Assembly: GCA_013153635.1 (NCBI GenBank)
Contig: JAADDZ010000007.1
Location: 1 to 64,000, forward strand
DNA from: Aquificota bacterium
GTDB taxonomy: Bacteria > Aquificota > Aquificia > Aquificales > Hydrogenothermaceae
DNA length: 64,000 nt
Direction: 5' to 3'
This document shows positions 9,045 to 12,988 of this stretch, one piece after another. Position 1 is the stretch's first letter. Each line of letters begins with the position of its first letter. The notes under the pieces were generated by a model. That model was not told the origin of the DNA, made no database searches, and was given only the letters and a program-made list of their open reading frames with translations. Made by a program: the position numbers and the translations under genes.

Positions 9045-10517
<1,473 letters not shown>

Positions 10518-10526
10518 AGGTAAAAA

Positions 10527-10886
10527 ATGGGAAAATTAACAAAATTTGATGTTCTCCTAGGACAAGAGCTAACAAACCTAGAAAGATTTATCATAAAAAG
10601 TCCCTTAGGTACTCCCGAATTTTGGAGCGAATGGCAGGCAAAAACAGGAGAAATCATAATAACAAAAGCGGCTATAAGAAAAGCGATAAAAACCCACAAA
10701 GAAAGACTTGGTGAAGAAGAGATAATAAAACTTTCAACTATGCTAGAAGCCTACAAAGAGATAGCATCATACTTAGAGTTACTAAGACAGACAGCTCTAA
10801 AAATAAAAGGTATAGACCCAGTAGGTTGGGATATTTTTGACGGTATAGAAGGGGAAAATGAAGGGGAAGACGACTTACCTTTTTAA
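10527..10886 (+). CDS. Unknown acidic-tailed protein with SSB-like C-terminus
   Basis: A 119-residue protein not recognised by family. Residues 1-95 look helical, with LTKFDVLLGQELTNLERFI and STMLEAYKEIASYLELLRQ. The last residues are EGENEGEDDLPF. An acidic run ending DDLPF is the classic tip of bacterial single-stranded-DNA-binding proteins, used to recruit repair and replication partners. No OB-fold signature is visible, so this is not SSB itself. It follows guaB by 9 bases with an AGAGGT site, and precedes topoisomerase I by 62 bases. A role in DNA metabolism is inferred from the tail and the neighbour, not demonstrated. Confidence 0.75.
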   Translation: MGKLTKFDVLLGQELTNLERFIIKSPLGTPEFWSEWQAKTGEIIITKAAIRKAIKTHKERLGEEEIIKLSTMLEAYKEIASYLELLRQTALKIKGIDPVGWDIFDGIEGENEGEDDLPF

Positions 10887-10948
10887 ATATTGAGAGCATT
10901 AAAAACTATATTATATTTAGCATAAAAGGAATTTAATCTGGAGAACCT

Positions 10949-12988
10949 ATGACAGAAAAAATAATAATCGTAGAAAGTCCCAAAAAAGCTAGAGAAATCC
11001 AAAAATTTTTAGGAAAAGGCTATACAGTAAAAGCCACAATAGGGCATTTTAAAGACTTACCAGAAAAAGAGATGGGCGTTGATTTAAAAACATTTGAACC
11101 ATCTTTTATAGTAAAATCAAAAAATCATAAAAAAATCCTGTCAGAAATAAAAAAATTAGCCAAGAAAGCTAAAGAAATCTATATAGCAACAGACCCAGAC
11201 AGAGAAGGGTATGCTATAGGATACTTTATGTTTCAAGAGCTAAAGAAAACAGCAAAAAACAAACCTATAAAAAGAGCAGAATTCCATGAAATAACCCAAA
11301 AGCATGTAAAAGATGTACTAAAAAAAGCACCAGAATTCGAAAAAACTAATACAGGACTGTTTAATGCTTTTCTTGGTAGAAGAGTTGGAGACAGAATAGT
11401 AGGTTATACCCTATCTCCTATAGCCTCTAAAGAGATTGGAGGAAGGTTCAGTGTAGGTAGAGTCCAGTCTCCAGCAGTGAGATTAATTGTAGAAAGAGAA
11501 GAAGAGATAAAAAACTTCAAACCAGAACCGTACTACGTTATATCTGCCCTTTTAGAAAAGGACAAAAAACATATATCTACTACATACAAGGAACAAAAAA
11601 TAAAAGACAAACAAAAAGCCCAGAAGATATATGAAGATATTAAAAAAGTAGGATACGCAGTAGTAAAAACAGTAGAAAAAAAACAGGTAAAACAGTCTCC
11701 AAAACCTCCATTTGTAACTTCTACATTGCAACAGACAGCAAACTCTGTATTAAAATTTGCTCCAGAAAGAACTATGATGTTAGCCCAAGACTTATTTGAA
11801 AATGGTTTGATAACTTATCATAGAACTGACAGTGTAAGAATCTCCGATGAAGCTATAAAAGGTATAAGGAAATTTATAAAAGAACAGATAGGAAAAGAGT
11901 ACTTACCTCCAAGAGCTAGAAAATACAAGAATAAAAACACCCAAGCAGATGCTCACGAAGCGATAAGGATAACAAATTTTGTAGATTTAAAAGCCCAAGA
12001 AAAATTATTGCAAGAAAAAGGTCTCTCTGAAGACCATCTAAAACTACTGAAACTTATCTATGAGAGAACATTAGCTAGTCAGATGAAAGACGCTATTTAT
12101 GATAGAACTACTGTGTTATTCGACATAAATAAACACCTATTTAAGACTACAGGGTCAGTTCTAACATTTGAAGGGTTCAAAAAGATATATAACCAAGAAC
12201 AAGAGCAACAAGACAACCTTTTGCCACCTTTAGAAGAAGGAGAAAAACTAAAAAAATTAGAAGAGAAATTAGAAGAAAAGTTTACAAAACCGCCACCAAG
12301 ATACACAGAGGGAAGCTTAGTAAAAAAACTAGAAGAATTAGGAATAGGAAGACCTTCAACGTATGCATCTATAATAAAAACTATAAAAGATAGAGGGTAT
12401 GTTACAAAACAGTCCGGTTCGTTAAGACCTACAGAAAACGCATATAATCTGATTAACTATCTACACAGGAGATACAACTGGGTAATTGATTATGATTTTA
12501 CAAGGAAGATGGAAGAATTTTTGGATAAAGTAGAAGAAAACAAAAAAAACTGGAAAGAGTTCGTAAAAGAGCTGTACAAAAAATCACAAAAAAAATCAGG
12601 TTCTTCTATATCTGAAAAGATGCGAAACTATGCACTAGACTTAGCAAAGAAACACCAAAAAGACATATCCAATATCATTGATAACCCTGAAAAGCTTAAA
12701 GAGTTTATAGATGAACACAAAGATACAAAACCAACAGAAAAACAGATAGCTTATGCAAAAGCTTTGTCAGAAAAGACAGGACTAGAACTGACAGAAGAGA
12801 CACTACAAGACAAAGAAAAAATAAAAAAATGGATAAACAAAGCAAAAAAAGAAGCTATGAAATATATCCAGCTTTCAGAAAAACAGAAAAAAGTTCTCAT
12901 ATCCCAAGGCAAAGAAGACCTCATAGACCAACCAGAAAAAGCTCTAAAATGGCTAAACACATACTTTAAAAAAAGGAAAAAAAGATAG
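10949..12988 (+). CDS. topA: Type IA DNA topoisomerase, divergent, without zinc fingers
   Basis: Relaxes negatively supercoiled DNA through a 5'-phosphotyrosine. The Toprim domain opens with IIIVESPKKAREIQKFLGKG and has DPDREGYAIGYF at 82-93, where the usual Glu after DREG is Tyr. The active-site Tyr290 lies in GLITYHRTDSVRIS, and FSVGRVQSPAVRLI and DAHEAIRIT are also present. The TYHRTDS form, with His after the Tyr, differs from the common TYMRTDS. The C-terminus has no Cys4 fingers. Instead about residues 555-679 hold three related helical units beginning SEKMRNYA, TEKQIAYA and SEKQKKVL. The length of 679 is short for TopA. It could be the housekeeping enzyme or a second, lineage-specific one. 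Confidence 0.9.
   Translation: MTEKIIIVESPKKAREIQKFLGKGYTVKATIGHFKDLPEKEMGVDLKTFEPSFIVKSKNHKKILSEIKKLAKKAKEIYIATDPDREGYAIGYFMFQELKKTAKNKPIKRAEFHEITQKHVKDVLKKAPEFEKTNTGLFNAFLGRRVGDRIVGYTLSPIASKEIGGRFSVGRVQSPAVRLIVEREEEIKNFKPEPYYVISALLEKDKKHISTTYKEQKIKDKQKAQKIYEDIKKVGYAVVKTVEKKQVKQSPKPPFVTSTLQQTANSVLKFAPERTMMLAQDLFENGLITYHRTDSVRISDEAIKGIRKFIKEQIGKEYLPPRARKYKNKNTQADAHEAIRITNFVDLKAQEKLLQEKGLSEDHLKLLKLIYERTLASQMKDAIYDRTTVLFDINKHLFKTTGSVLTFEGFKKIYNQEQEQQDNLLPPLEEGEKLKKLEEKLEEKFTKPPPRYTEGSLVKKLEELGIGRPSTYASIIKTIKDRGYVTKQSGSLRPTENAYNLINYLHRRYNWVIDYDFTRKMEEFLDKVEENKKNWKEFVKELYKKSQKKSGSSISEKMRNYALDLAKKHQKDISNIIDNPEKLKEFIDEHKDTKPTEKQIAYAKALSEKTGLELTEETLQDKEKIKKWINKAKKEAMKYIQLSEKQKKVLISQGKEDLIDQPEKALKWLNTYFKKRKKR

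Follow-up and report, generated by a model that had tools for sequence, protein, structure and literature searches.

A forward-strand open reading frame at 10527-10886 of the window (the whole stretch of DNA analysed, 64,000 nucleotides) begins with ATG and encodes a protein of 119 aa. Its translated C-terminus is EGENEGEDDLPF, and the last residues before the stop read ...FDGIEGENEGEDDLPF. The gene lies between guaB, which ends at 10517, and topA, which starts at 10949 on the same strand; the gap of 62 bases to topA given in an earlier, sequence-only reading of this DNA is correct. The features of the locus are as follows.

9051-10517, + strand: guaB (IMP dehydrogenase; Pfam IMPDH), the upstream neighbour, 9 bases away and adjacent to the family gene in 32/88 loci
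10516-10521, + strand: AGAGGT, a likely ribosome-binding site, from the sequence and the upstream bases of 58 homologues
10527-10886, + strand: the gene of the studied family, 119 aa, stop included in the coordinates, with homologues
10542-10583, + strand: predicted helix 1 (residues 6-19), in the AlphaFold model and also in an Aquificaceae-like member
10584-10613, + strand: loop (residues 20-29), with K24 nearly invariant and P26 invariant in the alignment
10614-10694, + strand: predicted helix 2 (residues 30-56), beginning with the invariant F32, W33, W36 and Q37 (alignment, AlphaFold)
10713-10805, + strand: predicted helix 3 (residues 63-93), with Y82 and L83 invariant (alignment, AlphaFold)
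10845-10883, + strand: predicted disordered acidic tail (residues 107-119; pLDDT <50 at 107-118), acidic in 92/92 members
10869-10883, + strand: DDLPF tip, similar to the SSB C-terminal tip (sequence, genome pattern scan, selection)
10890-10917, + strand: promoter-like TTGAGA-16-TATATT (10/12; motif scan) between the family gene and topA, of a class whose number of sites in the region is at chance level
10949-12988, + strand: topA (Pfam Topoisom_bac/Toprim), the downstream neighbour in the window's genus only

GAGG-type sites such as AGAGGT precede most of the 58 homologues compared. Members from g16 and f3 (L056, L058, L051-L055) have no GAGG-type site before the ATG; the g16 start codons have a TATAAT-like box about 6 bases ahead of them, suggesting leaderless transcripts.

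The ORF is real and not a chance frame, because homologues are present in 58 of 61 related genomes and, across the phylum, in 104 of 136. The latter came from the profile search that the sequence-only reading had proposed, here built from 38 members: all matches fall within the order Aquificales (104 of its 112 genomes) and none in the 24 others. Seven of the eight order genomes without a match are at 55-78% completeness and one (G050) is at 95%. The gene is nearly always single copy, and two of the 104 matches (G095, G101) are partial. By name, the homologue records belong to Hydrogenothermaceae, Persephonella, Sulfurihydrogenibium, Thermocrinis and Aquificaceae; the window's own genome belongs to Hydrogenothermaceae, a family of Aquificales. 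The scan beyond the phylum consisted of one peptide pattern, so absence there is weakly tested. One record titled Acidobacteria bacterium (RFFP01000015.1, L149, 98,060 bases) contains this Aquificales-only gene; its title is probably wrong.

Library searches did not place the family. The window protein matched no family in Pfam (best E 0.018; 15.6 bits, where the cut-off is 27) and none in NCBIfam, and its best E in PHROGs was 0.16. The 38 members gave scattered weak matches to Pfam and NCBIfam, mostly confined to a single member, the strongest in Pfam having E 0.00041. A PDB sequence search found no relative (best E 1). A viral origin was rejected: tblastn against 50,697 phage records gave no match, an IMG/VR scan gave no relative, and the viral structure library held no match at E <=0.001. 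A role as replacement for RNA polymerase omega was likewise rejected, PF01192 being present in 127/136 genomes, the window's own included. No paper on the family was among those listed by the literature searches; signature-protein papers on Aquificae of the 2013 type may include the gene as order-specific. The gene is thus a real member of an unnamed, order-specific family undescribed in the libraries searched (Pfam, NCBIfam, PHROGs). It is nearly universal in its deep-branching order and has no described function.

Structure prediction supports the earlier impression, formed by eye, that the protein has no OB fold. The AlphaFold model, based on 38 sequences, is all-helical (helices 6-19, 30-56 and 63-93; mean pLDDT 87.3) with a tail disordered from about residue 107, and the model of an Aquificaceae-like member shows the same fold (H6-19, H30-56, H61-91; pLDDT 85.3). 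PF00436 (SSB) gave no match in the window protein at E up to 10. The protein is therefore predicted to be a confident three-helix bundle with a disordered tail, and not a normal SSB with an OB fold. Residues L18, P26, F32, W33, W36, Q37, A49, Y82, L83 and G95 are invariant in the alignment; judged by position along the helices, with coordinates uninspected, they would cluster around the end of the bundle where the tail exits. Foldseek searches of PDB structures with the two models gave no match at E <=0.001, and the best VIA-align Z score was 8.6, a level that the tool calls common among helical bundles. The structures listed by these searches were all set aside as common helical arrangements. 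For the window model Foldseek gave 14-3-3, GINS and further helical proteins (E near 1), and for the second model dust-mite allergens (E 0.2-0.7); VIA-align gave hairpins of histidine kinases, arms of seryl-tRNA synthetase and UvsY (Z 7-8.6).

Gene neighbourhoods were counted at 88 of 92 loci; 6 duplicate loci were dropped, and in 4 the ORF caller had masked the family gene. The neighbours were pgk (49), guaB (32), trpC (29), a thioredoxin-like gene (13), truD (5), aroK (5) and topA (3), names other than guaB and topA having been assigned by eye from conserved sequence, with no family search. The position of the gene next to topA had led to the idea that its product recruits, or is a partner or regulator of, topoisomerase. 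The short same-strand gap favours this, and topA is adjacent also in both other genomes of the window's genus. These are the only three such loci, however, against the far commoner pgk, guaB, trpC and thioredoxin-like neighbours, and the promoter-like site (of a class counted at chance level) separates the two genes. The topoisomerase link is unsupported because topA is adjacent at 3 of 88 loci only; a functional partnership is extremely improbable, and TopA is not favoured as a docking partner.

Among 92 distinct sequences (fragment L144 excluded), every C-terminal tail is acidic, with at least 5 D/E within the last 14 residues and one basic residue in total. The last residue is F in 62 and one of F/L/I/V/M in 87. 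The commonest end is DF (31/92); PF occurs in 17 and is absent from 75. A tip of the form (D/E)-hydrophobic-x-(F/L) is found in 65/92 members against 15/554 background ORFs of the same loci, and the stricter (D/E)-hydrophobic-x-F in 55/92 against 3/554, counts that are not independent since the members are related. DLPF, DMPF, DISF, EIEF, DLDF, DFDF and DLLF can, in our reading, be taken as variants of one tip, which SSB DIPF also fits.

Codon comparisons further indicate that this tail is under strong selection. In the 12 sequences of the DLPF clade, to which the window protein belongs, the last 8 codons have a pN of 0.008 and a pS of 0.76, compared with 0.097 and 0.73 for the core; in 16 Aquificaceae-like sequences the last 9 codons have 0.030 and 0.80, compared with 0.185 and 0.79. 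Nonsynonymous divergence of the tail is thus 12-fold below the core in the window's own clade and 6-fold below it in the Aquificaceae-like clade. Because tail pN is this low although synonymous sites in the DLPF clade are near saturation, the tail is functional, and chance or mere acidic composition is an unlikely explanation. By this measure constraint on the protein is strongest in the tail, which, being better conserved than the fold, is marked as the feature to test. The picture of an undescribed non-OB protein with an SSB-like C-terminus thus holds up. The expected conservation of the DDLPF end itself fails family-wide, given the 75 of 92 members without PF, and stands within the DLPF clade.

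A disordered acidic tail with a terminal aromatic under selection is found in most clades and lost in g18, whose members end GGV, GGT, GGM, GGQ or EG. Other members that have lost the hydrophobic end finish in EEES or TDFDP. Members from g8 have drifted to EEEF, EEEI or EEES, with their own SSB unchanged, and across g8 and g6 the last residue shifts among F, I and S, with the SSB tip kept (PF, or PW in G014). The tree of 92 rows computed without the tail has few columns, and its deep branches are weak.

The likeness of the DDLPF end to the acidic SSB C-terminal peptide, pointed out in the sequence-only reading, is borne out in the window's own genome, where SSB is a separate gene whose product ends SSDEDIPF. 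The pattern (D/E)(D/E)-hydrophobic-P-F-stop gave 5 raw DNA matches in this genome against 2 for the reversed pattern. Two of the five are real C-termini, the window ORF and SSB, the sole such proteins encoded there; of the other three, one has a TGG codon instead of a stop, one is antisense to an aconitase-like ORF and one is antisense to glnE. These results would fit a mimic of the SSB tail that docks on RecO, PriA, RecJ, RecG and similar proteins instead of SSB, as a decoy or adaptor: the two tips, EDDLPF and DEDIPF, are alike, the tip is kept in the DLPF clade, and the genome has a RecO ORF, whose product typically uses the SSB tip. (Beside recO and a ychF-like gene, at 2215-3393 of contig C25 (L246), lies an ORF that by eye resembles a family A DNA polymerase domain.)

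Comparison across the order argues against mimicry for the family at large. In the 75 genomes with both proteins (a truncated SSB in G062 was dropped, and the best-scoring SSB was taken where there were several), PF ends 63 SSBs and 16 family proteins. Co-variation with SSB tails was not found in the 21 genera compared: within-genus similarity was 11.76 against a permuted mean of 11.94, and a fraction of 0.61 of 10,000 permutations equalled or exceeded the observed value, so that tails are no more alike within a genus than between genera. In the Aquificaceae-like clade the conserved family tail DDEDIDLDF is unlike its own SSB tip, EDDEIPF. Two members end DISF, reminiscent of ssb-113 in E. coli, a Pro-to-Ser substitution that weakens partner binding (PMC10164576). 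Taken together, the absence of PF from 75 of 92 members, the DISF tips and the lack of tracking with the SSB tail leave SSB-pocket binding possible for the DLPF clade only. Mimicry of the SSB tail is accordingly an unlikely account of the protein, and a pocket shared with the SSB tip is unlikely even in that clade.

The survey also turned up unusual SSB proteins. In all seven g12 genomes (family f3), with one SSB match per genome, SSB has DDFDILL or DDLIL at its end in place of a terminal Pro-Phe (L094 in G040, L101 in G044, L102 in G048, L110 in G038, L114 in G042, L115 in G050 and L117 in G046): a tip regarded as almost universal has changed throughout this genus. The resemblance in g12 between the family tail DDLDDLLF and the SSB tail DDLDDFDILL concerns a single lineage and proves nothing. 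Single SSBs with odd tips end DEDIPW (L086, G014), SDDDVPL (L085, G011), NDEDIVF (L099, G041) and GDEGLNF (L244, G093), and one has no acidic hydrophobic tip (NEIDFNNDS; L243, G088). In three g8 genomes (L062/L022 in G021, L063/L029 in G025, L064/L031 in G016) SSB lies about 7.4 kb from the family gene on the same contig; in a further g8 genome, G009, the two are far apart.

Tail conservation and the chemistry of the SSB C-terminus (SSB-Ct) suggest that the tail may act as a C-terminal docking peptide. The explanation we put forward, with about an even chance of being right, is a helical protein confined to this order whose Phe-terminated acidic peptide docks on a partner. The compact bundle would combine a short helix 1 with a long helical hairpin (helices 2 and 3). 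Some 25 flexible residues would follow it, strongly acidic towards the end and mostly closing with (D/E)-hydrophobic-x-Phe-COOH. On the partner, a hydrophobic pocket bordered by a basic lip would take up the side chain and carboxylate of the terminal Phe, and the tail Asp/Glu residues would run along a basic ridge, in the manner of SSB-Ct, so that the docked tail keeps the bundle beside the partner. For the SSB tip itself, PMC10164576 describes a pocket for Phe, a basic lip for the carboxylate and a basic ridge for Asp, and section 3.2 of PMC10143822 reports that the acidic half and the DIPF half both add affinity. In the window's clade, the DLPF tip may be near enough to SSB DIPF or DVPF to enter some SSB-tip pockets; in the rest of the order, with DLDF/DFDF or DLLF tips, the pocket is probably another or a drifted one.

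Docking is supported by the two models, both of which show a confidently predicted helical core with a disordered tail. Strong constraint would likewise be expected of an autoinhibitory or solubility tail, which weighs against it, as do the loss of the hydrophobic end in some members (g18, EEES, TDFDP) and the drift of the last residue in g8 and g6. A rather improbable extension is that Aquificales possess a second, SSB-independent hub peptide that recruits genome-maintenance enzymes, with Persephonella-like tips having converged on the SSB tip so as to share or compete for its pockets. If the tail does bind SSB-tip pockets, SSB would not be the sole protein in a bacterial cell to use them, which would matter for the sharing of SSB-tip enzymes and for inhibitors modelled on that tip.

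The charge distribution is consistent with a different role: RNA or DNA would be bound by the helical core, which is mildly basic, and the tail would compete with them for that surface as an acidic nucleic-acid mimic. Acidic tails of SSB, T4 gp32 and T7 gp2.5 are reported to compete for the nucleic-acid surface in this manner. The core has a median net charge of +3 (range -2 to +18, 75 members) and the tail of -7, and acidity is the sole tail feature kept in all 92 members. Acidity alone, however, does not explain why a terminal Phe is preferred and why the last 8-9 residues are nearly unchanged, and neither the window protein nor the 38 members matched a nucleic-acid-binding family above cut-off. 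Such autoinhibition is on balance doubtful.

The tail could also set protein half-life if the terminal LPF were read by ClpXP. In some Streptococcus mutans strains a C-terminal LPF is a ClpXP degradation signal, but PMC5143411 also describes it as unrecognised in E. coli, S. gordonii and other S. mutans strains, and lists LDF among the altered motifs that impede degradation. A degron is highly improbable for a family in which DF, and not PF, is the commonest end.

Among known systems, T7 gp2.5 is an OB-fold ssDNA-binding protein whose acidic tail carries an essential terminal Phe with no preceding Pro. The DLDF type of the family shares the acidic tail and the terminal Phe without Pro; the difference lies in the OB fold, and no sequence relation to the family was seen, the phage search being empty. 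An acidic gp2.5 tail with a terminal Phe is also named in a title cited in PMC9917605. The LPF signal of S. mutans SsbA and SsbB resembles the window protein in its C-terminal DDLPF, and differs in being strain-limited and carried on SSBs (PMC5143411), whereas the studied family is mostly without LPF. SSB-Ct (DFDDDIPF in E. coli) differs in scaffold, the family protein being a predicted three-helix bundle with no OB fold or PF00436 match, and in that PF is not kept across the family (17/92). The likeness to SSB-Ct lies in the disordered acidic stretch and, in the window's clade, in the D-hydrophobic-P-F-COOH end.
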